NCBI GenBank assembly: GCA_029237695.1
Contig: JAQRGA010000043.1
Span: forward strand, 124,001-188,000
Direction: 5' to 3'
DNA length: 64,000 nucleotides
Source of the DNA: Conchocele bisecta
Taxonomy: Eukaryota; Mollusca; Bivalvia; Lucinida; Thyasiridae
Shown: piece by piece, positions 849 through 63,060 of the stretch
Position numbering within the stretch: the first letter of the stretch is position 1
Layout: each line of letters opens with the position of its first letter
Position numbers and translations under genes: made by a program
The notes under the pieces: generated by a model
Databases searched by the model: none
What the model was told of the DNA's origin: nothing
What the model saw: the letters and a program-made list of their open reading frames with translations, nothing else

Positions 849-1039
849 CAGAGCTCCAGATAAGGTGCGTAATTTGGAGGTAAATTTCTTATTTCTCCAT
901 CAAAAATTGCAAGTTGGGAGTGCTTTAGAATCGTCTCAATGAGACGATTCTAAAGCACTACCAACTTGCCATTTTTGATGAAGAAATAAAAATATTTCAC
1001 CCCAAGTTGGTCAAATTACGCACCTTAACTGGAGCTCTG
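849..1039. mobile_element. Family F foldback element, GAATCGTCTC-type hairpin
   Basis: CAGAGCTCCAGATAAGGTG to CTTAACTGGAGCTCTG, with gatag on both flanks (844-848 and 1040-1044). The centre is a near-perfect hairpin around GAATCGTCTCAATGAGACGA, extended by arms reading ccatcaaaaattgcaagttg and its complement. Non-autonomous. Confidence 0.85.
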
Positions 1040-1465
1040 GATAGATATTACAATAACATTTCCCGCTGTAAACATCTCGCGCACAACCAACTACAACCAA
1101 CCAGTAGATATAATTACATATTTATCTTGCTACACACTGTAAGCAAATACATTTAAAATTGCTGTTCCCAATAAAACGATAGAAATCACTCGAAGCAATA
1201 AATAATTTGAATACAGTGATCATTCAAGCACATTCAATAGTCACGTCATTAAATGTAGTGGTGACCTGGGGCAAGCGGAACGTTCTGATAATATCACTTC
1301 GTACTTTTGGTGAAATAGGCTGAAATTAAATTTGATAATATTAAATTTTATCAAAATTTAAGAGTAAGCCTTCTTTTTATTTCGTGCGAAGGAGGTGGAG
1401 GAGCTGGGGAGAAGGACAGGTTTCGTGAAACAGACAGTAGTGCTCTACAACAAGGCCACAACACG
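1040..1465. other. Unassigned intronic DNA with a degenerate foldback fragment
   Basis: AT-rich. From 1300 to 1445 it resembles the ends of the foldback at 35900-36409 (gtttcgtgaaacagacagta, and an inverted aaggcttac/gtaagcctt-type pair). No coding signal is seen. Confidence 0.4.
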
Positions 1466-1709
1466 TAAAATATTTTGCATGCTGGGAAACTTGTGGGCTA
1501 TAAATAGTTCAAAACTAGTGGATACAAATGCATCAAATTTTCTTTTATTTCTCCTTTTAAATATATGAATACGTCTTGGAATTTCATTAGAATTGAGTCC
1601 TGAGGACTCAATTCTAATGAAATTCCAAGACATATTTACGGAGAGAAATAAAACATATACTCCAAATTGGTTTGGCGGATATTTTCACCGCGAGCATGCA
1701 AAGAGTTAA
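1466..1709. mobile_element. Family A TTAA MITE (left end decayed)
   Basis: The right end is GCATGCAAAGAGTTAA; the left end is decayed to taaaatattttgcatgctg. The central hairpin is TCATTAGAATTGAGTCC, loop TGA, then its complement. Non-autonomous; the apparent minus-strand ORF across it is a palindrome artefact. Confidence 0.8.
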
Positions 1710-2157
1710 GAATTACGACGCAGACATGACATGCATTGTCCCGTACACCACTATCAAGCCATCTGGTTAACGATGCGTGCATGTTCCGCATGAGCTCTCC
1801 AAATACAGGTAGCCATTAAACGTTCAGGTGAGCGATTGCCAGGGGCAACAAGATTCTACAGGGATTTAGATCATATCGCTGCGCGTTAAATTGACTGTAC
1901 GAGAGATACGTGAAACATTAGCCACGAATATTGAAAAGAGAGCGAACCGAATAATTGGCCCTAATCTGGCGATGTGATTTTTATGACCGAACCGATGTCG
2001 TGGATTTGTCATTATACTGACACATTGGTATCACATGATCGAAAAGCCACAGGTCATTTAACAAACATAAATTTTATCCAAATATTAATACCTGTAGTCG
2101 ATGGGAGCAATTGTAACAGCCATCAATTGTAAAATGGTTCAACTGTGCAGGGCCAAA
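1710..2157. other. Unassigned intronic DNA
   Basis: No repeat family or coding signal that I can support, apart from short AT-rich stretches. Confidence 0.4.
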
Positions 2158-2400
2158 TTAACCCATTTCATGCTGAGAATATGCCATTTCTATTGGGGAA
2201 AATCATAAATATTTTCTTTAAATGCGCTTGGAGTTGAATTTTTTCTCACCGAGACGGTTCAAATGAGTGGTTGCAGCATATACTTTCATTGAGAAATAAC
2301 AAAAACAACAATAACATATTTAAAACTAGAAAATGTGTTCATAGAACACGGATGCCCCACATAATCAATTATAGCAAATAAAGCAACATTATAAGTGGAA
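2158..2400. mobile_element. Family C TTAA MITE, incomplete
   Basis: Starts TTAACCCATTTCATGCTGAG. Only one arm of the core hairpin survives (gagacggttcaaatgagtgg). The right terminus is missing. Confidence 0.6.
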
Positions 2401-2767
2401 AAGGGGGAGATAATTCATGATGAGGGGTCGAATGAAAAATCTGAATAAACTTTGCGCATCTACTCATCATAAGGAAGCTATATACCACCAAGTTTCAGGT
2501 GTGTGTAGCTATTAGGGTTTAAAAGTTTTATGAGTTACAGGCAAAAATTTGACAATTTGATGTCGAAAAGGGGGAGATAATCCATGACTCGGGTGTCGAA
2601 TCAAAATAAACTTTGCGCATCTACTCATTATAAGGAAGCAGTATGCATACCAAGTTTCAAAAAATGACGTAAAACTGATTATTCTTAATTTTACCGCCAT
2701 AATTGGTTATTTACATTTTTTAAACTACATGTATCAGAAAATGCAGTGTAAATATAAATAATACAAC

Positions 2768-3171
2768 CATGGGCTGTTGCATGTACTGTGGTTTATACTT
2801 GGTCTGTTGCGTGTACTGTGGTTTATACTTGGTCTGTTGCGTGTACTGTGGTTTATACTTGGTCTGTTGCGTGTACTGTGGTTTATACTTGGTCTGTTGA
2901 GTGTACTGTGGTTTATACTTGGTCTGTTGCGTGTACTGTGGTTTATACTTGGTCTGTTGCGTGTACTGTGGTTTATACTTGGTCTGTTGCGTGTACTGTG
3001 GTGTTTATACTTGGTCTGTTGCGTGTACTGTGGTTTATACTTGGTCTGTTGCGTGTGTTCTGTGGTTTATACTTGGTCTGTTGCGTGTACTGTGGTTTAT
3101 ACTTGGTCTGTTGCGTGTACTGTGGTTTATACTTGGTCTGTTGCATGTACTGTGGTTTATACTTGTTCTGT
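2768..3171. repeat. 30-bp minisatellite, about 13 units
   Basis: The unit is gtgtactgtggtttatactt plus ggtctgttgc. Because 30 is divisible by 3, all frames stay open and give spurious Cys/Leu/Tyr-rich ORFs on both strands. The array ends exactly where the family A element at 3172 begins. Confidence 0.95.
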
Positions 3172-3416
3172 TTAACTCTTTGCATGCTAGCGGCGAAAAT
3201 ATCCGCCAAACGAATTAGGAGTATATGTTTTATTTCTCTCCGTAAATATGTCTTGAAATTTCATTAGAATTGTGTCCTCCGGACACAATTCTAATGAAAT
3301 TCCAAGACATATATCATGACATTTATAAGGAGAAATAAAAGAAAATATAATGAATTGTCATCTGCTATTTTTGAACTATTTATAGCCCACAAATTTCCCA
3401 CCATGCAAAGAGTTAA
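3172..3416. mobile_element. Family A TTAA MITE, intact ends
   Basis: TTAACTCTTTGCATGCTAGC to ACCATGCAAAGAGTTAA. The central hairpin is ATTAGAATTGTGTCC, loop TCC, then its complement. TTAA on both sides fits a piggyBac-type target duplication (inference from established superfamily rules). Confidence 0.85.
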
Positions 3417-3455
3417 AGTGTGTGGAGTCCTTCTTCGGACTCCACACACTTTAAA
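3415..3455. repeat. Short perfect hairpin
   Basis: aaagtgtgtggagtcc and its complement around a ttcttc loop, directly after the family A copy. Confidence 0.8.
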
Positions 3456-3520
3456 CAGACCAAAAAATGTATTGTAAATCTACAGAAACAGTAAACACAA
3501 CAGCCGATGGTTTTATTCCT

Positions 3521-3776
3521 TTAACCATTAGATGGCTACCGGTATCTTAATTGTTTTGTCGTCTACTGTTTATTTTCTATTTTCCATTTTTATCATCAAA
3601 AACATGTTTTGACAGCACTTTAGAATAATTTACAACATGCTTTGACAGCACTTTAGAATCATTTCCATTGGAAATGATTCTGAAGTGCTGTCAAACCATG
3701 TTTTTATTGAGAAATAAGGCAAGATATAAAAGCAACAGCAAACAACAATTGTTGTGAGTAGCGGTCTAAGGGTTAA
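3521..3776. mobile_element. Family B TTAA MITE
   Basis: The right end is GCGGTCTAAGGGTTAA; the left end is TTAACCATTAGATGGC. The core hairpin is AGAATCATTTCCATTGGAAA within arms containing tgctttgacagcacttta. One arm segment is duplicated (acaacatgctttgacagc). Confidence 0.82.
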
Positions 3777-3968
3777 TATTAACATTTGCAAACCATTGAT
3801 TTAATTGTTTCAACAATACAGACCTCTCTCAATACAATGTGCTAATGTTGCAAACAGTGTCGATCGTGATCTGCGCAATATGAAGTTTCTAATATTTTGA
3901 CAAAAATTATCCATTTTCAGATAAATGGAATTGCCTGAAAAATAACATGGGCAAGTCCCTTATACTAC

Positions 3969-4200
3969 TTAACCCATTTCATGCTGAGGATACTCTGATT
4001 TTTGTCGAAAAAATCTCATTATTTTGTTCATTCATCGATAAAGGTATATGTTGTTACCACTCATTTGAACCGTCTCGTTGAGACGGTTCAAATGAGTGGT
4101 AACAACATATACTTTCCAAAGGATATAAAGAAAATAGGGATATTTTTCTCTCAAAAGGTTCATATACTACTAAAAGTGTATCCCGTCTGTAATGGGTTAA
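3969..4200. mobile_element. Family C TTAA MITE, intact
   Basis: TTAACCCATTTCATGCTGAG to TCTGTAATGGGTTAA. The core hairpin is CATTTGAACCGTCTC, loop gtt, then its complement, about 60 bp in all. Almost identical to the copy at 44336-44565 in the opposite orientation. Confidence 0.88.
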
Positions 4201-4723: not shown

Positions 4724-4790
4724 AAAAAGTGTAGATCCTGATGAGACGGCTCGTTACGAGCTGGCTCATCTGGATCTACACTATTTACCG
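4724..4790. repeat. Imperfect palindrome repeat (GATCCTGATGAG)
   Basis: gtagatcctgatgagacggc followed by its near complement ending ctcatctggatctacact. Related copies lie at 29238, 44808 and 45972; half copies at 16600, 50757 and 51655. Confidence 0.65.
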
Positions 4791-4823: not shown

Positions 4824-5032
4824 TTAACCCTTAGAAAGCGGGGAAACACAAATATCGTCTGCTGTTGTATTTTGTTTTTATTCTCAATAAAAACATGGTT
4901 TGGCAGCACATTAGAATCATTTCCAATAGAAATGATTCTAAGTCTTGTCAAACCAAGTTTTTGATGAGGAAAATAGAAAATAAAACATAAACAGCAGACG
5001 AACAAAATTTAAATCAGCAGTGTAAGGGCTAA
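4824..5032. mobile_element. Family B TTAA MITE
   Basis: TTAACCCTTAGAAAGCGGGG to AGTGTAAGGGCTAA, with a core of AGAATCATTTCCAATAGAAA and flanking gtctgctgtt / aacagcagac arms. The right TTAA has decayed to CTAA. Confidence 0.82.
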
Positions 5033-5177: not shown

Positions 5178-5179
5178 TA

Positions 5180-5660: not shown

Positions 5661-5840
5661 CAATTTTTGTGACTGTGATTGGAGAAATGGAAATTATGGG
5701 TTTTATGACCAGTGTAGATCCAGATCAGCCTGTGCATCCGCACTGTCTGATCAGGATCTGCACTGTTCGCCATTCCAGAAGTGAAACACCCATCATGCTT
5801 GTAACAAGGACCATAGATCGCCATCAGGCTACAGGAGTGT
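5661..5840 (+). repeat. Family L element (GACTGGAGAAATGGGGCTTATGG), partial
   Basis: Contains gtgattggagaaatgg and tgtagatccagatcagcc, then the complementary tctgatcaggatctgcact. The in-frame peptide SVDPDQPVHPH is a by-product of the repeat, not a gene. Confidence 0.7.
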
Positions 5841-6599: not shown

Positions 6600-6813
6600 T
6601 TAACCCTTAGAATGCGGGAACCGAAAATAGTCGTCTGCTGATAATTCATATTTTGTCTTTTCTCTCAGTAAAAACATGGTTTGGCAGCATTTTAGAATCA
6701 TTTCCATTGGAAATGATTCTAAAGTGCTGCCAAACCAAGTTTTTGATGAGAAAAATGGAAAACAAAAAATATTCAGCAGACGACACAAATTAATTCAGCA
6801 TTGTAAGGGTTAA
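6600..6813. mobile_element. Family B TTAA MITE
   Basis: TTAACCCTTAGAATGCGGGA to GCATTGTAAGGGTTAA, with core hairpin AGAATCATTTCCATTGGAAA. Both TTAA ends are intact. Confidence 0.87.
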
Positions 6814-8485: not shown

Positions 8486-8563
8486 TCGATGGTCCAGTAA
8501 CATAAGGTCGTAACTGCTATGCTAAAGCATAGCAGTTACGACCTTATGTTACTAGACCATCGA
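8486..8563. mobile_element. Family E short palindrome
   Basis: TCGATGGTCCAGTAACATAA to its complement, 78 bp. The stem is nearly perfect and closes in taactgctatgctaaagcat. Confidence 0.85.
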
Positions 8564-8697
8564 CATGTGATTATCAGAGATGAAATAGGGGCATAACTCT
8601 GGATAGTTCAGTAAAATGTTTAAGCTATGCACACTCGTACTTGATGATTGTATGTATACCAAGTATGAAGAGGATCGGCTGAAAACTAGAAGGAGTT

Positions 8698-9985
8698 CGC
8701 CGGACAAGCAATGTGTGATGGCCGGACAAGCAATGTGTGATGGCCGGACAAGCAATGTGTGATGGCCGGACAAGCAATGTGTGATGGACAGACAAGCAAT
8801 GTGTGATGGACAGACAAGCAATGTGTGATGGACAGACAAGCAATGTGTGATGGACAGACAAGCAATGTGTGATGGACAGACAAGCAATGTGTGATGGACA
8901 GACAAGCAATGTGTGATGGACAGACAAGCAATGTGTGATGGACAGACAAGCAATGTGTGATGGACAGACAAGCAATGTGTGATGGACAGACAAGCAATGT
9001 GTGATGGACAGACAAGCAATGTGTGATGGACAGACAAGCAATGTGTGATGGACAGACAAGCAATGTGTGATGGACAGACAAGCAATGTTTGATGGACAGA
9101 CAAGCAATGTGTGATGGACAGACAAGCAATGTGTGATGGACAGACAAGCAAGTGTGATGGACAGACAAGCAATGTGTGATGGACAGACAAGCAATGTGTG
9201 ATGGACAGACAAGCAATGTGTGATGGACAGACAAGCAATGTGTGATGGACAGACAAGCAATGTGTGATGGACAGACAAGCAATGTGTGATGGACAGACAA
9301 GCAATGTGTGATGGACAGACAAGCAATGTGTGATGGACAGACAAGCAATGTGTGATGGACAGACAAGCAAGTGTGATGGACGACAAGCAATGTGTGATGG
9401 ACAGACAAGCAATGTGTGATGGACAGACAAGCAATGTGTGATGGACAGACAATGGACAGACAAGCAATGTGTGATGGACAGACAAGCAATGTGTGATGGA
9501 CAGACAAGCAATGTGTGATGGACAGACAAGCAATGTGTGATGGACAGACAAGCAATGTGTGATGGACAGACAAGCAATGTGTGATGGACAGACAAGCAAT
9601 GTGTGATGGACAGACAAGCAATGTGTGATGGACAGACAAGCAATGTGTGATGGACAGACAAGCAATGTGTGATGGACAGACAAGCAATGTGTGATGGACA
9701 GACAAGCAATGTGTGATGGACAGACAAGCAATGTGTGATGGACAGACAAGCAATGTGATGGACAGACAAGCAATGTGTGATGGACAGACAAGCAATGTGT
9801 GATGGACAGACAAGCAATGTGTGATGGACAGACAAGCAATGTGTGATGGACAGACAGCAATGTGTGATGGACAGACAAGCAATGTGTGATGGACAGACAA
9901 GCAATGTGTGATGGACAGACAAGCAATGTGTGATGGACAGACAAGCAATGTGTGATGGACAGACAAGCAATGTGTGATGGACAGA
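8698..9985. repeat. 22-bp minisatellite, roughly 58 units
   Basis: The unit is gatggacagacaagcaatgtgt. The first four units carry gatggccggacaagc. Only a few units carry single-base indels. All minus-strand frames stay open because 22 bp cycles through them, giving three overlapping spurious ORFs over 400 codons long. The preceding unique sequence ends gttcgccggacaagcaatg, so the array may have grown from it. Confidence 0.96.
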
Positions 9986-11114: not shown

Positions 11115-11352
11115 TTAACTCTTTGCATGCTAGCGGTGAAAATATCCGCCAAACGAATTAGGAATATATGTTTTATTACTAAATATGTCTTGAAATTTCA
11201 TTAGAATTGTGTCCTCTGGACACAATTCTAATGAAATTCCAAGACATATTCATGACATTTATAAGGAGAAATAAAAGAAAATATAATGAACTGTCATCTG
11301 CTATTTTTGAACTATTTATAGCCCACAAATTTCCCAGAATGCAAAGGGTAAA
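11115..11352. mobile_element. Family A TTAA MITE
   Basis: TTAACTCTTTGCATGCTAGC to CCAGAATGCAAAGGGTAA (right TTAA decayed). The core is TTAGAATTGTGTCC, loop TCT, and its complement. Confidence 0.82.
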
Positions 11353-12874: not shown

Positions 12875-13484
12875 CAGAGCTCCAGATAAGGAATTAGTAA
12901 TTGAGTATTTTCACTCCATCATATCTGAAGCAAATTGGCTATTTCAATATTTTAACCCTTTCCCTGTTTTGCGATATTTCGACTCTTCCAAATCGAAAAC
13001 ATCTGAATAAAAGAATCAAATGCTGGGTCAAATGATGGTTAAATTATCTGATAGAGTAGAAAACATTGTGGGAAAAGGAGAAATTGCTTGTTACAAGCAA
13101 TTTCTCCTTTTCCCACAATGTTTTCAAAAGACATCTGCAGAGGCGTGAAAAGTCGTCTCTATCAGGGAAAGGGTTAATTGGGTAAAATAAAATCACACTA
13201 CTGTTTACACATCAACAGACAGCATGAATAGTTTTCTTCGAAATGAAAACATGTCCTGGCATTTCATTAGAATTGTCTCTTTAGAGACAATTCTAATGAA
13301 ATACCAAGATGTGTTTTCATGAAAAATATGCTATATTTGTGGTCTGTTTATTGTTTTCTGCAGCATGATAAAGGTACCACAAATTTGTTATTGCTCTTTG
13401 ATACTCGCTACTTCTGATCTCAATTGGGTTTATGGCAATTTTAATTGGGTATTTACGTAAATACGCAGCTTATCTGGAGCACTG
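12875..13484. mobile_element. Family F element, GAATTGTCTC-type hairpin, with nested family D
   Basis: CAGAGCTCCAGATAAGGAAT to CAGCTTATCTGGAGCACTG, with the duplication gcaggt at 12869-12874 and 13485-13490. The core is TCATTAGAATTGTCTCTT and its complement. A family D MITE is inserted at TTAA 12952-13177. Confidence 0.88.
12952..13177. mobile_element. Family D TTAA MITE nested in family F
   Basis: TTAACCCTTTCCCTGTTTTG to ATCAGGGAAAGGGTTAA, with hairpin gagaaattgcttgttacaag and complement. The family F copy at 26890 lacks it and reads atattttaattg at the site, so it shows the TTAA target before insertion. Confidence 0.9.
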
Positions 13485-14637: not shown

Positions 14638-15214
14638 CCATTTAAACGCCCCGGGGGCGTTGCATTTTCGAAACGGGGCTGTCTAAATGATATTGTTTTT
14701 TTTGAGAAATAAATATGGTATAAAACTGGCTTCCACATGCTCTAAATGACTCGAAATACGAGTGCTATTTCGATGGTCTAGTAACATAAGGTCGTAAGAA
14801 AGCATAGCACTTACGACCTTATGTTACTTAAGACCATCGATTTGCTGTGAAGTCCCATCGGACCGAATTGTCGTAGTACGCATACATACATACATGTATG
14901 GCGATACATTTCATTGCAATTTCAGCAAATATTTTATTTCACAATCTGCAATTCGCCGCTAACGGTTGCCTGGAGTCATAGTGAATGTACATCGAATCGC
15001 GTGAGCGGAAGTGCAGTTTAAACGAGTAGGAATATTACCACACCGCAAGTATTGATTGTATGTGACGATTACCGCTTCCGGATTATTTGTTTGCACTCTA
15101 AATTATACCGATTTGAAAATAAGTTTTGAGAAATTTTACCAGACTTGAGCATCTATGTTAATGGGAAGTGGGTTGTGGATTTTTTTAAAAAAAATGCCAG
15201 GGGCGTTTAAATGG
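14638..15214. mobile_element. Inverted-repeat element (TCCATTTAAACGCCCC ends) with nested family E
   Basis: Ends are ccatttaaacgccccggggg and ccaggggcgtttaaatgg. A family E palindrome interrupts it at 14770. No coding capacity seen. Confidence 0.65.
14770..14840. mobile_element. Family E short palindrome, degenerate centre
   Basis: TCGATGGTCTAGTAACATAA to its complement, with centre gtcgtaagaaagcatagcac. The arm centre has lost a few bases relative to the copy at 16458. Confidence 0.82.
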
Positions 15215-16457: not shown

Positions 16458-16535
16458 TCGATGGTCTAGTAACATAAGGTCGTAAGTGCTATGCTATGGC
16501 ATAGCACTTACGACCTTATGTTACTAGACCATCGA
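16458..16535. mobile_element. Family E short palindrome with provable TA target site
   Basis: TCGATGGTCTAGTAACATAA to its complement, 78 bp. Flanks read cccaTA and TAtattacctg. The same host repeat without insert at 20394 and at 53529 reads cccatatattacctg, so removing the palindrome plus one TA restores the empty site. Confidence 0.92.
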
Positions 16536-19371: not shown

Positions 19372-19769
19372 CAGAGCTCCAGATAAGCTGCGTATTTGCT
19401 TAAATACCCAATTAAAATTGCCAAAAACCCAATTGAAATCAGAAGTAGTGAGGTATCAAAAAGCAATAAAACAATTGTGGCACCTTTATCATGCTGCAGA
19501 AAATAATAAACAGACCACAAATATAGCATATTTTTCTTATTTTCCATGAAAACACATCTTGGTATTTCATTAGAATTGTCTCCCAGGAGACAATTCTAAT
19601 GAAATGACAAAAGATGTTTTCATTTCGAAGCAAACTATTCAATATGTGCTGTCTGTTGTAAACAGTAAGTGTGATTTTATTTTACCCAATAAAAATTTTG
19701 AAATACCCAATTGCTTCAGAAATGATGGAGTGACAATACTCAATTACAAATTCCTTATCTGGAGCCCTG
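19372..19769. mobile_element. Family F element, GAATTGTCTC-type hairpin
   Basis: CAGAGCTCCAGATAAGCTGC to CCTTATCTGGAGCCCTG. The core is TTAGAATTGTCTCCCAGGAG and complement. The flanks do not show an obvious duplication. Confidence 0.85.
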
Positions 19770-20081: not shown

Positions 20082-20272
20082 CAGGGCTCCAGATAAGGTG
20101 CTTAATTTAACCAACTTGGGGTGAAATTTTGTTATTTCTTCATCAAAAATGGCAAGTTGGGAGTCCTTTAGAATCGTCTCATTGAGACGATTCTAAAGCA
20201 CTCCCAACTTGCCATTTTTGATGGAGAAATAAGGAATTTATCTCCAAATTACGCAGCTTAACTGGAGCTCTG
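20082..20272. mobile_element. Family F element, GAATCGTCTC-type hairpin
   Basis: CAGGGCTCCAGATAAGGTGC to CTTAACTGGAGCTCTG, with duplication tacata on both sides (20076-20081 and 20273-20278). The core is GAATCGTCTCATTGAGACGA. Close relative of 849-1039. Confidence 0.9.
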
Positions 20273-24969: not shown

Positions 24970-25525
24970 CTGGCTGTTATTGGGGAAATGGGGCTTATGG
25001 GATTTGCGACCAGTGTAGCTCCTGGTCAAATAGCACACTCCTGCAGACTGATAACGATCTGTATTGCTTGTCAGACCTCATGTTGTCATGTCATGTGACT
25101 GGAGCGAATAAACGATTATTATTAATTATTATTATTATAGAAGCTTGACAAGTGTTTCATTGATCGACTGGCGAACAGTGCAGATCCTGATCAGACTGTG
25201 CGGATGCACAGTCTGATCTGGATCTACACTGGTCGCTAACTCTATACGCCCCATTAATCCAGTCACAGCAAATACCTATATACTTGGCTGTGACTAGATA
25301 ATTGGGTCCTATGGGAATTGTGACCAGTGTAGCCTCTGATCAAATATCACACTCCTGTAACCTGATAACGATCTATATCTCTTATTACAATCATGACAGG
25401 CGTTTCACAGATGGAATGGCGAACAGTGCAGATCCTGATCAGACTGTGCGGATGCTCAGGCTGATCTGGATCTACACTGGTCGCATAACCCATAAGCCCC
25501 ATCTTTCCAGTCACAGCCACATGTA
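24970..25525. mobile_element. Family L elements, two adjacent copies
   Basis: Two inverted-end units in tandem (about 24975-25265 and 25285-25520). Each goes from tggggcttatgggatttg or similar to a complementary cataagcccc / ccagtcacag end. Each has gcagatcctgatcagactgt and gctgatctggatctacact as an inner imperfect palindrome. Confidence 0.75.
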
Positions 25526-27615: not shown

Positions 27616-27699
27616 TCGATGGTCTAGTAACATAAGGTCATAACTGCTATGCTTTAGCACGTCTAGTAACATAAGTACCTTATGTTACTAGACCATCGA
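27616..27699. mobile_element. Family E palindrome with internal rearrangement
   Basis: TCGATGGTCTAGTAACATAA to complement, flanked by TA on both sides. The second arm has a partial duplication (cgtctagtaacataagtacc). Confidence 0.82.
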
Positions 27700-28972: not shown

Positions 28973-29218
28973 TTAACTCTTTGCATGCTGGGAAACTTGT
29001 GGGCTATAAATAGTTCAAAACTAGCAGACAAAAATTCATCATATTTTCTTGTATTTCTCCCCGCAAATATCATGATTATGTCTTGGAATTTCATTAGAAT
29101 TGAGTCCTCAGAGGACTCGATTCTAATGAAATTTCAAGATATATTTACAGAGAGAAATAAAACATGCACTCCTAATTCATTTGGCGGATATTTTCGCCAC
29201 AAGCACGCAAAGAGTTAA
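28973..29218. mobile_element. Family A TTAA MITE
   Basis: TTAACTCTTTGCATGCTGGG to AAGCACGCAAAGAGTTAA, with core TTAGAATTGAGTCCTCAGAG and complement. Confidence 0.87.
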
Positions 29219-31389: not shown

Positions 31390-31830
31390 GTAAAAAATAT
31401 CGGCTTGGAAATGGCAGGAATTCCTCGGCCAGCCTGAGAATTCCTACACGTTTCATAGCCTTGCCAGATGACCATGATAACAAAAGACACTCGCATGATA
31501 TTCTCTACTTAACTCTTTGCATGCTGGGAAATTTGTGGGCTATAAATAGTTCAAAAATAGCAGACGAGAATTCATTGTATTTTCTTTTATTTCTCTCTAT
31601 AAATATCATGAATATGTCTTGGAATTTCATTAGAATTGCGTCCAGAGGACATATTTACACTGAGAGAGAAATAAAACATATACATATAGTCCTAATTAGT
31701 TTGGCGGATATTTTCGCCGCTAGCATGCAAAGAGTTAAGAACTATCACCTTGGAAATAGTAGGAATTCCTCGGCCAGCCACAGAATTCCTACGCATTTCC
31801 TAGCCATGCCTGGTAGTTTCTATATACACG
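31390..31830. repeat. Dispersed repeat flanking a family A element
   Basis: cggcttggaaatggcaggaa and caccttggaaatagtaggaa, each followed by ttcctcggccagcc, lie on either side of the MITE at 31509-31738. Confidence 0.6.
31509..31738. mobile_element. Family A TTAA MITE, hairpin collapsed
   Basis: TTAACTCTTTGCATGCTGGG to AGCATGCAAAGAGTTAA. One arm of the core hairpin is deleted (ttagaattgcgtccagagga). About 95 bp from the donor of the first coding Pax exon. Confidence 0.85.
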
Positions 31831-32715: not shown

Positions 32716-32946
32716 TGGTTGTGACTGGAGAAATGGGGCTTACAGGTTTTGTGACCAGTGTAGATCCAGATCAGCCTGCGCATCCGCGCAGTCTGATCAA
32801 GATCTGCACTGTTCGCCATAAAAAAAACACCCGTCATACTTCTAAAAACCAACATAAATACATATCGGGCTACAACAGTGTACAATTTGAGCAGAAGCTA
32901 GTGGTGACAAATCCCAAAAGCACCAGTTCTCCAGTCACAGTCACAT
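32716..32946. mobile_element. Family L element
   Basis: gtgactggagaaatggggct to agttctccagtcacagtcac, with inner gatccagatcagcctgcgca and its partial complement. Confidence 0.78.
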
Positions 32947-36409: not shown

Positions 36410-36930
36410 TAATATTTATTTCACTGATAGTGACTCTCGCGGTGGTATATCAGGATATTTTCATATGCAAATGAGACATGATATTTTTTAATTATTTATA
36501 TTAATTACAAGACACATTGTCACCTGAAAAAATAATATTGTTGACAGATTATAAAGTATGTCATTATATAATGCACATCCAAAAATAAATACAGAGAATA
36601 AACAGTAATTTTAAGGAAACACTGTTATCACCCCTGATATCTGTGGAAATTTACGTCTGATATAAAATGTATAATAATGCCAATCAATACATGGGTAATG
36701 GTGAATGAATGTTTATTTTGCCAGAAAACGTCTCAAATGATGTCTCTGATATAAAGATATTTATCTGCCTACTGAGTGGGCATGTACCTTTAATTAACAT
36801 CAGTAAGCATTCCGTCCTCCACTGGACCGCGAAGCAAAGTGTTTTTTCAGCCGTGGTATAACGGCTCGTGTTTCCAACTGCAAATTATGTTATTTTCTTT
36901 CTCAAATTGTAGGGACATAATTAGCAATTG
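36410..36930. other. Unassigned DNA
   Basis: AT-rich, no repeat family or coding signal recognised. Confidence 0.4.
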
Positions 36931-37331
36931 CAGGGCTCCAGATAAGGAATTAGTAATTGAGTATTGTCACTCCATCATTTCTGAAGCAATTGGGTATTTC
37001 AAAATTTTAATTGTGTAAAATAGAATCACACTACTGTTTACACATCAGCAGACCGCACTTATTTAATAGTTTGCTTCTAAATGAAAACACATCTTGGTAT
37101 TTCATTAGAATTGTCTCCTTTGAGACAATTCTAATGAAATTTCAAGATGTGTTTTCATGGAAAAATAAGAAAATATGCTATATTTGTGGTCTGTTTATTG
37201 TTTTCTGTAGCATGATAAAGATACCAGAAATTTTTCATTGCTTTTTGATACTCACTACTTCTGATTTCAATTGGGTTTTTGGCAATTTTAATTGGGTATT
37301 TACGCAAATACGCAGCTTATCTGGAGCTCTG
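36931..37331. mobile_element. Family F element, GAATTGTCTC-type
   Basis: CAGGGCTCCAGATAAGGAAT to GCTTATCTGGAGCTCTG, core TTAGAATTGTCTCCTTTGAG. Target duplication not evident. Confidence 0.85.
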
Positions 37332-37388
37332 TTCACAAGAAATATAATTGAATGATGAATACCATTGAAGTTATGCCTCATCCACATC

Positions 37389-37786
37389 CAGCTCCAGATA
37401 AGCTGCGTATTTGCTTAAATACCAATTTAAATTGCCAAAAAATCAATTGAAGTCAGAAGTAGCGAGTATCAAAAAGCAATAATAAATTTGTGGTACCTTT
37501 ATCATGCTGCAGAAAACAATAAACAGACCACAAATATAGCATATTTTTCTTATTTTCCATCAAAACACATCTTGGTATTTCATTAGAATTGTCTCCAAGG
37601 AGACAATTCTAATGAAATGCCAAGACATGTTTTCATTTCGAAGCAAACCATTCAATAATTGCTGTCTGTTGATTTGTAAACAGTAGTGTGATTTTATGTT
37701 ACCCAATTAAAATTTTGAGATACCCAATTGCTTCAGAAATGATGGAGTGACAATACTCAATTACAAATTCCTTATCTGGAGCCCTG
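37389..37786. mobile_element. Family F element, GAATTGTCTC-type, opposite orientation
   Basis: CAGCTCCAGATAAGCTGC (two bases short) to CCTTATCTGGAGCCCTG, duplication cacatc at 37383-37388 and 37787-37792, core TTAGAATTGTCTCCAAGGAG. Confidence 0.88.
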
Positions 37787-37864
37787 CACATCCTCCCCCT
37801 CCCCAACAAGCCAGAGAAACACACACCAAAAAACGCAACAATGTGTTACTACATTGCAAAATAC

Positions 37865-39140: not shown

Positions 39141-39359
39141 TAGCTCTTTGCATGCTGGGAAACTTGTGGGCTATAAATAGTTCAAAACTAGCGGACAAGA
39201 ATTCATCACATTTTCTTGTATTTCTCCCCGTAAATATCATGAATATGTCCTGAGGACTCAATTCTAATGAAATTTCAAGACATATTTACAGAGAGAAATA
39301 AAACATATACTCCTAATTCGTTTTGCGGATATTTTCGGCGCTAGCATGCAAAAAGTTAG
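39141..39359. mobile_element. Family A TTAA MITE, both TTAA ends decayed
   Basis: TAGCTCTTTGCATGCTGGG to GCTAGCATGCAAAAAGTTAG, with the left arm of the core deleted. Confidence 0.78.
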
Positions 39360-41654: not shown

Positions 41655-41745
41655 AGTTATAATTCAGCACATCTTGGCATTTCATTAGAATTGTCTCCAA
41701 GGAGACAATTCTAATGAAATGCCAAGACATGTTTTCATTAGCGTG
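41655..41745. mobile_element. Family F hairpin fragment
   Basis: Only the TTAGAATTGTCTCCAAGGAG core and its arms (cacatcttggcatttcatta) remain. Confidence 0.7.
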
Positions 41746-41813: not shown

Positions 41814-42196
41814 TTAACCCTTAGAACGCTACGCACAACAATTGTCGTCTGCTGTTGCTTTTATATCTTACCTTATTTCTCAATAAAAACATGGTTTGAC
41901 AGCACTTCAGAATCATTTCCAATGGAAATGATTCTGAAGCGATGTCAAAGCATATTGTAAATTATTAAATTAAAGTGCTGTCAAAGCATGCTGTAAATTA
42001 TTCTAAAGTGCTGTCAAAGATAGTTGTAAATTATTCTAAAGTGCTGTCAAAGCATGCTGTAAATTATTCTAAAGTGCTGTCAAAGATAGTTGTAAATTAT
42101 TCTAAAGTGCTGTCAAAGCATGTGTTTGATGATAAAAATGGAAAATAGAAAATAAACAGCAGACGACAAAAAATTAACATAGCGGTGTAAGGGTTA
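41814..42196. mobile_element. Family B MITE with internal 33-bp expansion
   Basis: TTAACCCTTAGAACGCTACG to GCGGTGTAAGGGTTAG, core AGAATCATTTCCAATGGAAA. From about 41950 to 42120 the arm segment tctaaagtgctgtcaaagca plus tgctgtaaattat is repeated about five times. Other copies have one or two. Confidence 0.87.
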
Positions 42197-42354
42197 GTAT
42201 TCAACAACTCACTAATTATGCAAGTAAGTGTTGTCCTAATCTGTATGGTGTGATTCATATGCACCCCCTCACATCCGCTCACTGTGACAGGAGAAATGTA
42301 TAGCCACTGTAGACCCAAATCAGACTGTGTAGAAGTGGAGACTCGACTGCGTAT

Positions 42355-42756
42355 CAGAGCTCCAGATAAGCTGTGTATTTGTGTAAATACCCAATTAAAA
42401 TTGCCAGAAAACCCAATTGAAATCAGAAGTAGCGAGTATCAAAAAGCAATAACAAGTCTGTGGTACCTTTATCATGCTACAGAAAACAATAAACAGACCA
42501 CAAATATAGCATATTTTTCTTATTTTCCATGAAAACACATCTTGGTATTTCATTAGAATTGTCTCCAAGGAGACAATTCTAATGAAATGCCAAGACGTGT
42601 TTTCATTTCGAAGCAAACCATTCAATAATTGCTGTCTGTTGATGTGAAAACAGTAGTGTCATTTTAGTTTACCCAATTAAAATATTGAAATACCCAATTG
42701 CTTCAGAAATGATGGAGTGAAAATACTCAATTACTAATTACTTATCTGGAGCCCTG
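42355..42756. mobile_element. Family F element, GAATTGTCTC-type
   Basis: CAGAGCTCCAGATAAGCTGT to ACTTATCTGGAGCCCTG, core TTAGAATTGTCTCCAAGGAG. Inserted at the edge of a family H copy. Confidence 0.85.
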
Positions 42757-44335: not shown

Positions 44336-44565
44336 TTAACCCATTACAGACGGGATACACTTTTAGTAGTATGAACCTTTTGAGAGAAAAATATCCCTAT
44401 TTTCTTTATATCCTTTGGAAAGTATATGTTGTTACCACTCATTTGAACCGTCTCAACGAGACGGTTCAAATGAGTGGTGACAACATATACCTTTATCGAT
44501 GAATGAACAAAATAATGAGATTTTTTCAACAAAAATCAGAGTATCCTCAGCATGAAATGGGTTAA
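44336..44565. mobile_element. Family C TTAA MITE, intact
   Basis: TTAACCCATTACAGACGGGA to CAGCATGAAATGGGTTAA, core CATTTGAACCGTCTC, loop aac. Near-identical reverse copy of 3969-4200. Confidence 0.9.
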
Positions 44566-47399: not shown

Positions 47400-47880
47400 G
47401 AACCGTGAACAAACAGTGGATCATTGACGGTATTGTTCGCCTCGAAATGCTTACCTGATTATGGCACAGACCAGGGACATCGGATAAACGATCAGATTTC
47501 CCGATTTTCGTCAAAATTAAACACAAAAACATGCGGATTGCGAGTACTTTTGAATCGTCTCGCTGAGACGATTCAAAAGAACTTGCACATCGCATGTTGT
47601 ACCAGAACTCCAAAGAATTATTTAATATTCACCAGCCAAGTACAAAGCTTATCATATGAGGTGGAACAGCTATTTTCAATGTCCACTCAGGCGGCACTGT
47701 TGCCTATTATTCCGAAACCTAGCACGACAACGGCCTCAGTATATGCCCCGGCAACTATTGTTCATTCAAGTCGAATATTTTTCGCGTGTCCACTGAACTG
47801 TTACATGGGTTTTATGTTATGTCAAGCGGGAAACCAAAGGCTGGAACTGAAAATAGCTCGTTATATATAATCCCTATGTA
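47400..47880. other. Region with lone core hairpin and a 148-codon open frame
   Basis: At 47540-47600 a hairpin reads TTTGAATCGTCTCGCTGAGA with outer arms acatgcggattgcgagtact / aagaacttgcacatcgcatg. The open plus-strand frame runs through it and shows no recognisable domain or composition shift, so it is not called as a gene. Confidence 0.45.
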
Positions 47881-47893: not shown

Positions 47894-48108
47894 TTAACCC
47901 TTAGAAGGCGGGAACCGAAAACTGTTGTCTGCTGTTGTAACTTATTTTGTATTTTCTCTAAATAAAAACATGGTTTGGCAGCATTTTAGAATCATTTCCG
48001 TTGGAAATGATTCTAAAGTGCTGTCAAACCATGTTTTCGATAAGAAAAATTTGAAATAAAAAATAAACAGCAGACGTCAAATTTTTATTCAGCATTGTAA
48101 GGGTTTAA
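47894..48108. mobile_element. Family B TTAA MITE
   Basis: TTAACCCTTAGAAGGCGGGA to GCATTGTAAGGGTTTAA, core AGAATCATTTCCGTTGGAAA. Confidence 0.86.
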
Positions 48109-50398: not shown

Positions 50399-50625
50399 TG
50401 ACTGTGACTGGAGAAATGGGGCTTATGGGATTGATGACCAGTGTAGCTCCTGATCAAATAGCATACTTCAGTAGCCTGATAATGATCTATATTGTTTGTG
50501 AGAAGCATGACAAGTGTTTCATTGATGGCATGGTGAACAGTGCAGATCCTGATCAGATTGTGCGGATGCACAGGCTGATCTGGATCTACACAGGTCACAA
50601 AACCCATAAGCCCTATTTCGCCCTA
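50399..50625. mobile_element. Family L element
   Basis: gtgactggagaaatggggct to ccataagccctatttcgcc. Inner gcagatcctgatcagattgt and gctgatctggatctacac. Confidence 0.78.
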
Positions 50626-52343: not shown

Positions 52344-52744
52344 CAGAGCTCCAGATAAGGTGCGTATTTGCGTAAATACTCAATTAAAATTGCCAAAAAC
52401 CCAATTGAAATCAGAAGTAGTGAGTATCAAAAAGCAATGAAAAATTGTGGTATCTTTATCATGCTACAGAAAACAATAAACAGACCACAAATATAGAATA
52501 TTTTCTTATTTTTACATGAAAACACATCTTGGTATTTCATTAGAATTGTCTCCAAGGAGACAATTCTAATGAAATACCAAGATGTGTTTTCATTTAGAAG
52601 TTAAACTATTCAATAAGTGCGGTCTGCTGATGTGCAAACAGTACTGTGATTCTATTTTACACAATTAAAATTTTGAAATACCCAATTGCTTCAGAAATGA
52701 TGGAGTGACAATGCTCAATTACTAATTCCTTATCTGGAGCCCTG
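52344..52744. mobile_element. Family F element with 7-bp duplication
   Basis: CAGAGCTCCAGATAAGGTGC to CCTTATCTGGAGCCCTG, with attagag on both sides (52337-52343 and 52745-52751), core TTAGAATTGTCTCCAAGGAG. Confidence 0.9.
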
Positions 52745-53359: not shown

Positions 53360-55060
53360 GATATTTCTGGTTAGATTGCACCCTGATCTGTGACTGGAGA
53401 AATGGGGCTTATGGTCTTTGAGCTCCTAATATGTGACTGGAGAAATGTTTGTTTATTTGTTTGTTGGTTTAACGGCCTATCAAGAGCGAAGGTCATTTAA
53501 GGCCGGTTCAATGAGTTTAGTACTAAATCCCATATATTACCTGTATAAATGGATGGAAAATCGCTTTGCCCCCTCCCATAAGCAGTAGGATCAGTAATAA
53601 TCTTACTACTTTTCTAATGGGCAATAAGCAAATTCAACTCCCAGGTAACAAAAGAGCCAAAGATAAAAACGTGCCCGAGGGACAAACCAGGGAAATGGGC
53701 TTATAGAATTTGTGGCCAGCCAAGCTCCTGAGCATTGACTGGAGAAATGGGGCTTAAGATAATTTGTGGCAAGCCGAGCTCCTGATCTGTGACTGGAGAT
53801 GGGGCTTATGAAATTTATTGCCACTCTAGTTCCTGATCTGTGACTGGAGATGGGGCTTATGGCATTTGTTGCCACTCTAGTTCCTGATATGTGACTGGAG
53901 ATGGGGCTTATGACATTTGTTGCCACTCTAGCTCCTGATCTGTGACTGGAGATGGGGTTTATGGAATTTGATGCCTATTTATCCTCTGATCTGTGACTGG
54001 AGAAATGGGGTTTATGGAATTTGATGCATATTTATCCTCTGATATGTGACTGGAGAAATGGGGCTTATGGAATTTGTGGCCTATTTATACTCTGATATGT
54101 GACTGGACGAGAAATGTGGCTTATGGAATGTGTGGCCTATTTATACTCTAATATGCGACTGAAGAAATGTGGCTTATGGAATTTGTGGCCTATTTATCCA
54201 CTGATATGCGACTGGAGAAATGGGGCTTATGGAATTTGTGGCCTATTTATCCACTGATATGCGACTGGAGAAATGTGGCTTATGGAATTTGTGGCCTATT
54301 TATCCACTGATATGCGACTGGAGAAATGGGGCTTATGGAATTTGTGGCCTATTTATCCACTGATCTGTGACTGGAGAAATGGGGCTTATGGTATTTGTGG
54401 CCTATTTATCCACTGATCTGTGACTGGAGAAATGGGGCTTATGGTATTTGTGGCCTATTTATCCTCTGATCTGTGACTGGAGAAATGGGGCTTATGGAAT
54501 TTGTGGCCTATTTATACTCTAATATGCGACTGAATAAATGTGGCTTATGGAATTTGTGGCCTATTTATCCACTGATATGCGACTGGAGAAATGGGGCTTA
54601 TGGAATTTGTGGCCTATTTATCCACTTATATGCGACTGGAAAAATGTGGCTTATGGAATTTGTGGCCTATTTATCCACTGATATGCGACTGGAGAAATGG
54701 GGCTTATGGAATTTGTGGCCTATTTATCCACTGATATGTGACTGGAGAAATGGGGCTTATGGTATTTGTGGCCTATTTATCCACTGATCTGTGACTGGAG
54801 AAATGGGGCTTATGGAATGTGTGGCCTATTTATCCTCTGATCTGTGACTGGAGAAATGGGGCTTATGGTATTTGTGGCCTATTTATCCACTGATCTGTGA
54901 CTGGAGAAATGGGGCTTATGGAAGTTGTGGCCTATTTATCCTCTGATCTGTGACTGGAGAAATGGGGCTTATGGAATTTGTGGCCTATTTTTATCCTCTG
55001 AATGGGATTATGGTATTTGTGGCCAGCCTAGCTCCTGATTTTTAACTGGGGAAATGGACC
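53360..55060 (+). repeat. About 54-bp minisatellite made from the family L end, roughly 27 units
   Basis: The unit is gtgactggagaaatggggct tatggaatttgtggcctatt tatccactgatct (spaces added). Early units (53700-53930) carry ttgccactctagctcctgat and keep a closer match to family L termini. A GTTTAACGGCC repeat interrupts it at 53449-53690. Confidence 0.92.
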
Positions 55061-59425: not shown

Positions 59426-59619
59426 TACATGTATATCAGGATATTGTAAATTCAGTGGTTTTTTTTTTATATTCCCGCATGGTGCAGATGTATTCCCATT
59501 AGATTGCTTTAATAGGCTTAGACTTAGTTGTTACCCCATCTCAAACGAGGTGTTGGCCATAGGCAGGCATGTTTCTAGTGTTTAATAAAATATGCCATGG
59601 CATGCTTTGTTAAATCAAA

Positions 59620-60670
59620 TACAACAAGAGGGCCATGATGGCCCTAATTCGCTCACCTGACTCCATGAACACCAGAGGAGAATGTGACATTGAGTTCATA
59701 TGTGTTTTAAAAAAAATTGTGCTATTTTTAGATGGCGGTCATCTTGGATTAAGCGATGACTCTCATTTTACCAAATCTGAAAATGCTTCACCCAAGGATC
59801 ATAACTTACTATGAAGTTTGGCCAGCATCGGCCATGTGGTTCCTGAGAAAAAGACATTCAAAATCTCGAATAAATGGACCTTTTGGAGGCCATCATGGAT
59901 GACATAATCATCTGATTCCAACAAATATTGCACCAGAGCAATCGTCTCATCGATACCTTCAATTTGATATATGACACGACCATATTTGGTAAAAAATAAA
60001 ATTTGACCCCACAGGCCACGTCCATTGTTGACCCCGGGATCACCATTTTAACAAATTTGAAAGAGAATTGTACATCGATCATTCCTACCAAGTTTCGTCG
60101 AAATCCGGCTGGCGGTTCATGAGAAGAAGATTTGTTAAGAATTTTTGCTATTTTTAGACGGCGGCCATCTTGGATTAGCGACGACCTCCGTTTTAACAAA
60201 TCTGAAAAGGCTTCACCCATGGACCATAACTGTGAAGTTTGGCCACCATGGGCCAAGTGTTTAGTGTGAAGAAGAATTTTGAAATCTCTAATAAAAGAAC
60301 GACCTTTTGACCTTTCAGCGGCCATCTTGGATGACATGACCATCCGATTTCGACAAAAAATGCACCAGAGCGATCTACTCTTTGATACCTTTTATTTGAT
60401 ATATGACATGACCATATTCGGTCAAATATAATTTGACCCCACAGGCCACGCCCATTTTTGACCCCGGGGTCACCATTTTAACAACTTTGAAAGAGCATTG
60501 TACATCGATCATTCCTACCTGGACCATGGCCATGAAGTTTGGTGATTGTAGGCCCAATGGTTACCGAGGAGAAGACGTTTGAAAATGTTCATGGACGACG
60601 GACGACGACGGACGACGGACACATTGCGATAACAATAGCTCACATGAGCTTCGCTCAGGTGAGCTAAAAA
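59620..60670. repeat. Dispersed repeat with gggccatgatggccc start and gctcaggtgagct end
   Basis: Internal units repeat about every 300-400 bp: cggccatcttggatta, cacaggccacgcccattttt, gaccccggggtcaccatttt, gagcattgtacatcgatcat. It ends in gacgacggacgacggacaca and acatgagcttcgctcaggtg, with ctcacctg at the start giving a short terminal inversion. Open minus-strand frames are repeat artefacts. Confidence 0.75.
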
Positions 60671-61074
60671 TACATATGCACACCAAAGTGTGAGGAGAAT
60701 TATTTTCTTTCTTTTTGAACACCTTTGCAAGGTATAATTTTTATCTATCAAATGATATAATTTGACTTCAGAATGCACCATTTGGCTTAATAGATTTCAA
60801 AATTTCTGGGGGAAGACCCCCCCCCCGACCCCCCATCTTCCTGAAGGGGGGCAACCCACCCCTCCCGAACCCTCCCCCCGCTTGGCACAAGTGCCGAGCG
60901 CTGCTGAGTCATTAGTAAATTGCCATCTACTATTTCAAAACATTCTGTTACTTTCATCCTTATTGAAAGCTCTGTTTTTGATACTCACTAATTCTGATTT
61001 CAATTGGGTTTTTGCCAATTTTAATTGGGTATTTACGCAAATACGCACCTTATCTGGAGCTCTGGGCATTCACC

Positions 61075-61225
61075 TGCAGCATTGGGGGGAAAATCCCAAA
61101 ATCAGAACGGATTATTTACATCGAGAAAAAATATATTCAGCCCTGAAATTAGAATAACCTGACCTAGTGCCAGGTCCATACGGCACCAAAGTCACTTGGC
61201 CCCTCCTATCATAGCATTGCGAATA
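61075..61225 (+). repeat. GTTTAACGGCC repeat, internal part
   Basis: gaaaatcccaaaatcagaac, acctgacctagtgccagg and gtcacttggcccctcctatc. Confidence 0.62.
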
Positions 61226-61530
61226 ATCGTAATTATCCCGTCACCACAGTGCGTATGTGCCGTGAAACATTTTTGATATCCTGTCAATACGACCAAATCA
61301 CTGCGTATGAATATGTGCGGTGACTGGTTATTTTTTTTGCATTTAAAAGCCATTTGTAGGTGTTGACGGGATAAATAGAATAGTAGGTTTAAGTGCCGTG
61401 AATGGGGAAAATATCTGGCTCGGCACGGAAACGGGATGTGCTCGGCAGCGCCTCGCCCATCCCGTTTCCTAAGCCTTGCCAGATATTTTTTCCCATTCAC
61501 GGCACTAACCTACTATTCTCTATTACCCTA
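61225..61530. repeat. Foldback with tctattctacc-type ends
   Basis: gggataaatagaatagtaggtttaagtgccgtgaa near 61370 is mirrored by ttcacggcactaacctactattctctatta near 61496. A further pair gaaaatatctggctcggcac / gccttgccagatattttttc surrounds cgggatgtgctcggcagcgc. Confidence 0.7.
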
Positions 61531-61610
61531 CTTCAATGGCTGAATGGCGAACAGCGTACTCCCTGATCAGACTGTGCGGGTGCTACACTGGTCACAAATG
61601 CCATTATGTC

Positions 61611-62137
61611 CAGAGCTCCAGATAAGCTTCGTGTCTAAAGCGTACTATACAGGGATTCCGCTGGGGAAAATAAAAAAATCGCCACTTAAAAAAATTGGCG
61701 ATAAAAAATTACAATTTTTTTTTTCCGAAAATTGTAATTTTTTATCGCCAATTGTTTATTTTTATCGCCAATTGCGAAAGTGGCGATCGCCAGCGGAATC
61801 CCTGACTATATCCCCTGATTTCAAAACCATTGCGTATTTTACTTTTACAAATGGATTATTGATTTTCTTAATTACTAAATAGGGAACAAATGATACAAAA
61901 TATAACAAATTTAAAAATTGACTTATTTCAGCTGCAAAAAGCAAACACTGTTTGCTTTTTGCAGCTCAACTAAGTGAATTTTCAATTTTATGACAGCTTT
62001 TCACTGCGCAATCTGAAAATCAATGCGTATTTTCATATTGCTGTGCGTATTTTGTACTCCCACTTTTGATAATCAATGCGTATTCAGCTAAAATAATGGA
62101 GTAAAATACGCCAATACGCACCTTATCTGGAGCTCTG
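61611..62137. mobile_element. Family F element with 8-bp duplication, GCAAACA-type
   Basis: CAGAGCTCCAGATAAGCTTC to CACCTTATCTGGAGCTCTG, with attatgtc on both sides (61603-61610 and 62138-62145). The centre is aaagcaaacactgtttgctt. A CAGGGATTCCGCTGG element sits inside it. Confidence 0.9.
61650..61804. mobile_element. CAGGGATTCCGCTGG MITE, nested
   Basis: CAGGGATTCCGCTGG to CCAGCGGAATCCCTG, duplication actata at 61644-61649 and 61805-61810. The core pairs aattggcgataaaaaattac with its complement. Related hairpin at 26660. Confidence 0.9.
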
Positions 62138-62424
62138 ATTATGTCCCTTCTCTTTGAAAGCGGGAACAATTGGTCACAGGTGGTCAAACAAGCTCATTAT
62201 CACTCATCATCCGTTGCCATGGTAACAGGTCAATAAGTGAACTGTTACTGTGACAACAGATAATGGTCACACTTCACACGATATTCCGTGTCACACTACC
62301 GGTGGTGCAGAGTCTGAAAATCAATGAGCGAATATTTTCTGGAAATAAACGAGGCTCCAGGCAGAAATCTCTTTAATTCGAATGGCGAGGATTGCAACAA
62401 TGCACAATTGATCTGATATCTGAT

Positions 62425-63060
62425 TTTAACCCTTTTTATGCCGAGGATACGTCATTATCCTAAATATTTTCCTTCTATGCGTTCAGAAGTATATGTCATG
62501 ACCACCATTTGAACCGTTGAGACGGTTCAAATGAGTGGTCACAACATATACTTTCATTCAGAAATAACACAATAAAAATAAGATATTTAATAAATTTCAT
62601 ACCCGTAAAGGTGTATTCCGAATGGAATGATTTTCATGTGCAATACCAATTCACAGGTATCAAAATTTACCAATTGATTTCTATTTTCTTTATATCTCAA
62701 TGAAAGTATGTGTTGTTACCACTCATTTGAACCATCTTGATAATACGGTTCAAATGGTGGTCACGACATATACTTCTGATGAGAAATAAATATTTTTTTT
62801 AAATATTTTATTTTTATTTTTGTTATTTCTCAATGAAAGTATATGTTGTTATCACTCATTTGAACCGTCTCGATAAGACGGTTCAAATGGTGGTCACGAC
62901 ATATACTTCTGATGAGAAATAAAGAATTTTTAAAAATATTTTATTTTTATTTTTGTTATTTCTCAATGAAAGTATACTTTTGGTTAGAAATACGGTAAGC
63001 AAAATAATCATACAAACTTTTGTATGAAAAACTTGATATCTTCAACATGAAAGGGCTCGA
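62425..63060. mobile_element. Family C element with serial hairpin modules
   Basis: Starts TTAACCCTTTTTATGCCGAG and fades at caacatgaaagggct. Three core hairpins occur in a row (about 62505-62550, 62700-62775, 62840-62915), plus a partial fourth. They are separated by aatattttatttttattttt and gttatttctcaatgaaagta. The hairpin stems have accumulated different lesions. Confidence 0.78.

Follow-up and report, generated by a model that had tools for sequence, protein, structure and literature searches.

A hairpin core common to miniature transposable elements with different ends in the bivalve Conchocele bisecta

Can the interior of a miniature inverted-repeat transposable element (MITE) be a part in its own right, common to elements that carry different ends? 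MITE interiors are usually regarded as leftovers. The question is raised by a 64,000-nucleotide stretch of the genome of the thyasirid bivalve Conchocele bisecta (assembly GCA_029237695.1, contig JAQRGA010000043.1, positions 124,001 to 188,000; hereafter the window, GC content 38%), to which all results below refer and which is crowded with short repeats. A preliminary description of this DNA, whose quoted motifs were all found in the window, had placed related hairpins at the centre of elements with unlike termini and proposed either that modules are exchanged or that the core has its own function.

When the window was scanned for hairpins whose loops measure 0-6 nt, 74 scored at least 12; a stricter re-run returned 71, 48 of which scored at least 20 (six dinucleotide shuffles of the window gave 0, 0, 0, 1, 0 and 0 hairpins at scores of at least 12 and none at scores of at least 20). 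Chance or base composition as the source of the hairpins, and of the core likeness described below, was ruled out by shuffle controls. Many of the hairpins fall into repeat families that differ in the sequence of the central arm (A, B, C, F1, F2, F3, E1, E2, D, H, I, J and K), and the elements have the character of MITEs: they are short and non-coding, with terminal inverted repeats (TIRs), target-site duplications (TSDs) and several copies of even size (A, 232-238 bp; B, 206-247 bp in four copies and approximately 376 bp in a fifth with extra arm units; C, 222-224 bp; F1, 191 bp; F2, 398-402 bp). No tRNA was found in the window, no Rfam family reached its gathering score there, and the 10 scanned of the window's 33 long open reading frames had no Pfam match and no transposase. 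Pattern scans of viral and prokaryote contig collections found no copies elsewhere, which is, given those collections, little informative.

One core under two classes of ends

Two classes of ends were distinguished. Elements of families A, B, C and I are bounded by TTAA (first bases CTCTT in A, CCCTT in B, CCCAT in C and CCCTT in I), which is present on both sides in at least 14 elements (3 A, 7 B, 2 C and 2 I; the one at 47894-48108 has an additional base alongside) and damaged on one or both sides elsewhere (for example, in the A elements at 1474, 11115 and 39141). All four families come close to the terminal motif CC[C/T]T, not all of them exactly; because their 30-nt ends gave no mutual match at p < 0.01, the class rests on the TSD and this short motif. 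F elements start with CAGRGCTCCAGATAAG, end with its complement and have CAGRG...CYCTG termini; the ends of F1, F2 and F3 are mutually alike, and none matched the ends of the TTAA class at p < 0.01. Exact TSDs of 5, 6, 6, 6, 7 and 8 bp flank 6 of the 11 two-ended F elements (counting the copy at 37387 from 37389), and the other five had no TSD of 3 bp or more. The TSD of hAT transposons is 8 bp, or 5-6 bp in some groups, and CAGRG...CYCTG termini are a hallmark of hAT. Going by the terminus alone, the A, B, C and I ends are presumably piggyBac-like and the F ends hAT-like; Kolobok ends, in the excerpted account of them, begin 5'-RR (PMC9587614), in contrast to the 5'-CC of piggyBac-type ends.

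As judged by sequence comparison, the core is homologous between the two classes. The TTTCATTAGAATTGTSTCC stem was recovered at the centre of the A elements at 3172-3416 and 11115-11352 and, on at least one arm, at the centre of the F elements starting at 19372, 26890, 36931, 37387, 42355, 52344 and 55877. When arms were aligned from the outside to the centre, A, B, C, F1 and F2 were found to share one module, the inner end of which resembles CWTTWGAAYYRTYTC close to the centre and which has, in many copies, a TTATTTCTC-like box farther out (as read by eye). The shared stretch of the preliminary description is thus present but longer than it had stated, approximately 40 nt per arm, and its consensus TTNGAAYYRTYTC fits the B copies that read TTTAG but not those that read TTCAG.

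Pairwise tests of consensus sequences chained A1, A2, F2, F1, B, C and G (a lone hairpin) by 11 significant pairs, not by all pairs, and linked E1 with E2 in a separate group (F1, A1, A2 and I were each represented by two copies, which makes these consensuses weak). Families D, H, I and K matched no other family in these tests; F3 gave three marginal matches (A1, A2 and J; p 0.004-0.02) among 105 comparisons, where approximately two are expected. An arm profile built only from A, B and C placed all 24 arms of F1, F2, G and a lone F2-type core (Fc) above 2,400 shuffles, and one built only from B and C placed 20 of the 24 above all shuffles and 24 of 24 above the 99th percentile. The later profile run excluded test rows from training and did not include the control families; in an earlier run, the training alignment of which included F test rows, 45 of 48 control arms did not rise above the floor (24 hairpins of E1, E2, D, H, I, J, K and F3, with some E2, F3 and H hairpins omitted), the exceptions being D_50021_R (3.5), K_42897_L (0.5) and E1_25419_L (−3.6). 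The reverse control run left 47 of 48 at the floor, with D_50021_R reaching 6.0.

Core likeness among the window's copies therefore exceeded that of shuffled palindromes, and cores are not each tied to one type of end: the A/F2 core occurs in both end classes, and F ends enclose the F1 and F2 cores and also an unrelated F3 core. The F centres had been described as three unrelated sequences; GAATCGTCTC (F1) and GAATTGTCTC (F2) proved to be relatives at a p-distance of 0.33, and only GCAAACACTGTTTGC (F3) looks unrelated. Ends and cores have recombined at least once.

Pairing and renewal of the hairpin

The arms of the different families have diverged by p-distances of 0.19-0.49 with complementarity retained. 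Across 28 hairpins and 38 pair positions, 93.1% of cells were paired, and 30 of the 38 pairs showed change on both sides (189 cells); sliding one arm by 1-3 columns reduced pairing to 36-43% and the pairs changed on both sides to 6-12. The 28 hairpins were hand-chosen and exclude degenerate and one-armed copies, such that the 93.1% applies to copies that are fairly intact; 16 of 36 arms in B and 8 of 20 in C have no close partner, some of these being tandem arm units. Folded as single-stranded DNA, five A-F hairpins gave −31 to −39 kcal/mol (z −10.7 to −16.3).

This fold is not merely the symmetry of the whole element, because symmetry of the outer arms is weak relative to that of the hairpin. 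In 18 chosen elements (a set that leaves out the B copy at 41814), arm identity was 0.87-1.00 in the hairpin and 0.31-0.65 outside it, and outer-arm symmetry had z < 2 against shuffles in 12. Residual outer symmetry was highest in the F1 element at 849-1039 (z 4.1), followed by two B and two C elements (2.2-2.7) and one I element (2.0). Foldback of the whole element as the sole cause of the hairpins was accordingly unsupported, though some copies retain traces of it. In both end classes, the hairpin centre lay within 0-14% of element length from the element centre in the 18 elements, and approximately 22% away in the B copy at 41814, which has extra arm units.

Where might pairing be restored? 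Observed arm mismatch was close to that expected if the arms changed independently (0.102 versus 0.117 in B, 0.106 versus 0.117 in C and 0.087 versus 0.096 in F2). Cells with an identical change on both arms numbered 2 in A, 4 in B, 2 in C and 2 in F2, where 0.2-0.5 were expected in each, an excess that could also reflect inherited subfamily variants. Homogenization of arms within resting copies was thus mostly unsupported; because arms decay nearly independently in the copies, renewal would occur mainly in the lineage from which copies are made. A candidate for such a change separates the two F2 subtypes, x and y, which differ at 3 of 78 hairpin positions and 20 of 323 positions outside the hairpin: from x to y, every hairpin difference falls on the same arm and replaces a mismatch or wobble by a match. 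One arm-copying event would explain this more simply than three selected mutations, though three sites are a small number and one intermediate state is present in the x copy at 42355.

Deletion, duplication and nesting also occur at or near these hairpins, as follows from three observations. In two of the six A elements, most of one arm is missing between direct repeats of 3 nt (GAC in one, GTC in the other); the B copy at 41814 has arm units at 41993, 42026, 42059 and 42092, spaced by 33 nt on one side (41993-42112), and several further B copies carry a single additional unit; and an I element lies inside an F2 element at TTAA, a nested TTAA insertion.

Other cores in the window

A second core, E, unrelated to the A/F core, occurs with different ends, beside one of the TTAA type and under one that is not of that type (Table 1). 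A stretch resembling GGCRAACAGTGYAGATCCTGATSAGAC (consensus read by eye) is common to E1 and E2, and the sequence outside E2 differs at its other copies. The E core, together with F ends over the F3 core, hints at further exchange.

Several observations concern the remaining repeats. The E1 hairpins at 5710-5765, 25171-25236, 25419-25484, 32756-32811 and 50533-50598 have, by eye, largely the same mismatches every 4-7 nt, and these mismatched arms (one copy was folded) contrast with the near-perfect hairpins of other families. The H family (8486-8563, 14770-14840, 16458-16535 and 27616-27699) consists of pure hairpins of approximately 70-85 bp with TCGATGGTCYAGTAACATAAGGTCGTAA... arms. Their wider flanks are unrelated, but the 2 nt on either side are identical within each of the four copies (CA/CA, TT/TT, TA/TA and TA/TA), which suggests an independent hairpin element that has a TSD of 2 bp. 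A tandem array at 53990-54947, mostly of 53-bp spacing, has a unit that contains the E1 end (TGTGACTGGAGAAATGGGGCTTATGG), with copies also at 53387, 53732 and 55092; it is a satellite that originated from the end of a MITE. At 36929-37788, an inverted pair of F2 elements, one of each subtype, makes up a large palindrome with 367-nt arms (91%), and a long minisatellite with a CPSHIACLSITHCLSVHHTLLV-like unit and minus-strand open frames spans 8637-9985.

Table 1. Positions in the window of elements with the shared core, followed by elements with other cores (TSD, target-site duplication).
Element	Position	Ends and TSD	Hairpin	Remarks
A	3172..3416	TTAA both sides	3246-3312, central	A1-type
A	28973..29218	TTAA both sides	29077-29143	A2-type
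A	11115..11352	right TTAA damaged	11182-11250	
A	1474..1709	left end damaged	1568-1636	A2-type
A	31509..31738	TTAA both sides		right arm mostly lost; GAC direct repeat at junction (by eye)
A	39141..39358			left arm mostly lost; GTC direct repeat at junction (by eye)
B	6600..6813	TTAA both sides	6659-6755, element-centred	
B	41814..~42193-42197	right TTAA damaged to TTAG	41891-41953	extra arm units
C	3969..4200	TTAA both sides	4044-4112	
C	44336..44565	TTAA both sides	44422-44490	
F1	849..1039	CAGAGCTCC ends; 5-bp TSD GATAG	889-989	
F1	20082..20272	6-bp TSD TACATA	20132-20232	
F2, subtype y	52344..52744	7-bp TSD ATTAGAG	52516-52593	perfect hairpin
F2, subtype x	42355..42756	TSD not found	42529-42606	
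F2, subtype x	19372..19769	TSD not found	19546-19623	
F2, subtype y	36931..37331	TSD not found		left half of inverted pair with 37387..37786
F2, subtype x	37387..37786	TSD CACATC if damaged left end starts at 37389		
F2	12875..13484	TSD GCAGGT		split at TTAA by element I (12952-13177)
Fc, lone F2-type core	41668..41739	no recognised ends		hairpin only; flanks non-repeated in window (blastn, E <= 1e-6)
G, lone core	47528..47598			closest to F1 core; flanks non-repeated in window
F3	61611..62137	F ends; 8-bp TSD ATTATGTC	61907-61989	unrelated core GCAAACACTGTTTGC
I	12952..13177	TTAA both sides; CCCTTTCCCTG ends	13059-13125	unrelated perfect hairpin
E1	32718..32941	GTGACTGGAGAAATGGGG-type ends	32756-32811	E core
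E2		right end of TTAACCC type, at 4827; no left end recognised	4724-4786	core, running into the right end

Exchange, its rivals and precedents

Together, these observations suggest that the hairpin can pass from element to element as a part of its own while staying able to fold; the core may also have its own function. From the cross-class homology, paired divergence, arm loss, arm duplication and nesting seen in the window, we infer, with moderate confidence, that template switching takes place where forks stall, or gaps are repaired, at the palindrome, and that transposition comes afterwards. On this view, the elements are non-autonomous MITEs that consist of end modules around a central, near-perfect hairpin core of approximately 75-100 bp, the ends presumably being recognized by different transposases (piggyBac-like for TTAA/CYC in A, B, C and I; hAT-like for CAG...CTG in F). 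The palindrome would stall replication, or be met in gap repair, and provoke template switching: a switch to the opposite arm would re-perfect the hairpin, slippage would duplicate or delete arms, and a switch to another element, or a nested insertion, would place the core under new ends. Transposing copies would then spread the new combination while resting copies decay. An extension of this proposal, which we regard as doubtful, would make the core a selfish module below the level of the transposon, perfecting itself by arm-to-arm copying, jumping hosts by template switching and able to exist alone, the last because the hairpins at 41668-41739 and 47528-47598 have no recognized ends.

Trees of the arms bear on whether such exchange was repeated. 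The arm tree joined A and F2 in one group (83/91), with A placed among F2, and F1 with G (92/94); the best tree sets F1 apart from F2 and requires three changes of end class. Bootstrapping columns at the family level placed F2 nearer to A than to F1 in 0.90 and F1 nearer to G than to F2 in 0.78 of cases, with F1 nearer to B than to F2 in 0.14. Strict discordance between end and core trees was, however, not significant by the AU test. Of the module exchange proposed in the preliminary description, the sharing of a core by unrelated ends is established in the window; repeated exchange is not proven, tree discordance only suggesting it.

Several results weigh against template-switching exchange or the homology that underlies it. 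One clade per end class was not rejected over 46 columns (p-AU 0.0898 for F1 + F2 and 0.18 for A + B + C), and the trees are therefore compatible with a single capture followed by divergence. No junction recording a core swap was seen in the window. A reverse profile, built from F1 and F2, placed 27 of 44 A, B and C arms above the 99th percentile but only 17 of 44 above all shuffles; by family, the latter were 8 of 8 for A, 9 of 22 for B and 0 of 14 for C, the link of which rests for this reason on the forward profile and the pairwise tests. The control arm D_50021_R, within the range of the best shuffles, nonetheless lay above the 99th percentile. Outer-arm z was positive in 17 of 18 elements (mean 1.6), and an older, longer palindrome may have decayed from the outside. 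Finally, selection for the hairpin would yield much of the same pattern.

Such selection is the main rival, although we think it rather improbable. The hairpin would be retained as an aid to transposition, either as a hinge or cruciform joining the ends of a 190-400-bp element or as a binding site or enhancer for more than one transposase, and cores would spread since elements that acquire one move better. The position of the hairpin near the middle of the element in both end classes is in keeping with this, as are the compensated changes, the confinement of arm loss to scattered copies of families that retain the hairpin, and a transposition role for a conserved MITE interior that the authors of a coral study suggested in its excerpted text (PMC2872659). 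However, the unrelated cores E, F3, I and D are also repeated, so the fold alone could matter, and F2x was copied despite three arm mismatches.

Capture on a single occasion, with no function for the core, seems unlikely. An A-like TTAA MITE would have inserted into an F element, or an F element into such a MITE; the inserted element would have shed its ends and the chimera would have spread, the hairpins being unmaintained relics of an inverted duplication and of an older, longer palindrome. An I element does lie in an F2 copy at TTAA, the weak outer-arm symmetry and the unrejected single core clade per end class agree with this history, the two F2 flanks look alike (p 0.0125), and F2 and A flanks look alike past the hairpin on one side, weakly (score 17, where the maximum of 400 shuffles was 16, over 91 pairs). 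Left unexplained by capture are the complementarity at 30 changed pairs, given that the outer arms have largely lost their symmetry, and the second shared core, E. Least probable by far is a core selected as an RNA hairpin, the precursor or decoy of small RNAs from read-through transcripts: the folds are strong (computed as DNA) and E1 mismatches are regularly spaced across copies, but near-perfect arms of 30-50 nt around loops of 1-5 nt are unlike usual pre-miRNAs and no Rfam family was matched at gathering score.

The closest precedent for exchangeable cores is provided by the coral elements named CMITEs, which, as described in the excerpted text, have TTAA TSDs, piggyBac-type CC[C/T]T ends and different TIRs around a conserved 75-base interior, form tandem arrays and include one element with an interior that fits another family than its TIRs (PMC2872659). 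A conserved interior under different TIRs is likewise seen here, in A, B, C, F1 and F2; CMITEs are, in the same excerpt, all of the TTAA class, whereas the core in F1 and F2 lies in elements that lack TTAA TSDs, and the core in the window takes the form of a near-perfect hairpin in which changes are paired. The excerpted CMITE main text contains none of the strings 'palindrom', 'hairpin', 'stem' or 'secondary structure'; the interior sequence is given in a figure, where a hairpin is possible (PMC2872659). The earlier view that no named system has this layout accordingly needs narrowing: different ends around a conserved interior are on record in CMITEs.

Other systems resemble the window in part, as far as the excerpts of their descriptions extend. 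Drosophila Foldback4, studied with ModuleOrganizer, is likewise non-autonomous and palindromic, with a modular interior of insertions, deletions and repeated modules, but its palindromes are terminal and exceed 400 bp, rather than central and short (PMC2955051). Fork stalling and template switching followed by transposition (FoSTeST) was proposed for multicopy Pack-TIRs, which are chimeric TIR elements; new TIR elements would arise there as in our proposal, although the captured piece is non-transposon gene sequence and here would be a hairpin shared among MITEs (PMC8277862). MITE-like elements of Anopheles have palindromic repeats and alike TIRs around different interiors, with no common interior under different TIRs noted in the excerpt (PMC3212995). 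Our literature searches, which covered open-access papers and few subscription journals, turned up no account of a hairpin core that crosses TSD classes, and the papers listed for sequence strings (20 of 30 and 14 of 14) looked unrelated by title. New here are the hairpin, its compensated divergence and its crossing of end classes.

The mechanisms by which MITEs originate were termed still unclear in the excerpted coral study (PMC2872659). If exchange of the kind proposed here is true, MITEs would possess a second part that is under selection or renews itself, namely an interior hairpin that persists while its sequence changes and that is common to elements with different ends and TSDs, and the birth of MITEs would be tied to palindrome-driven template switching, which is testable genome-wide.

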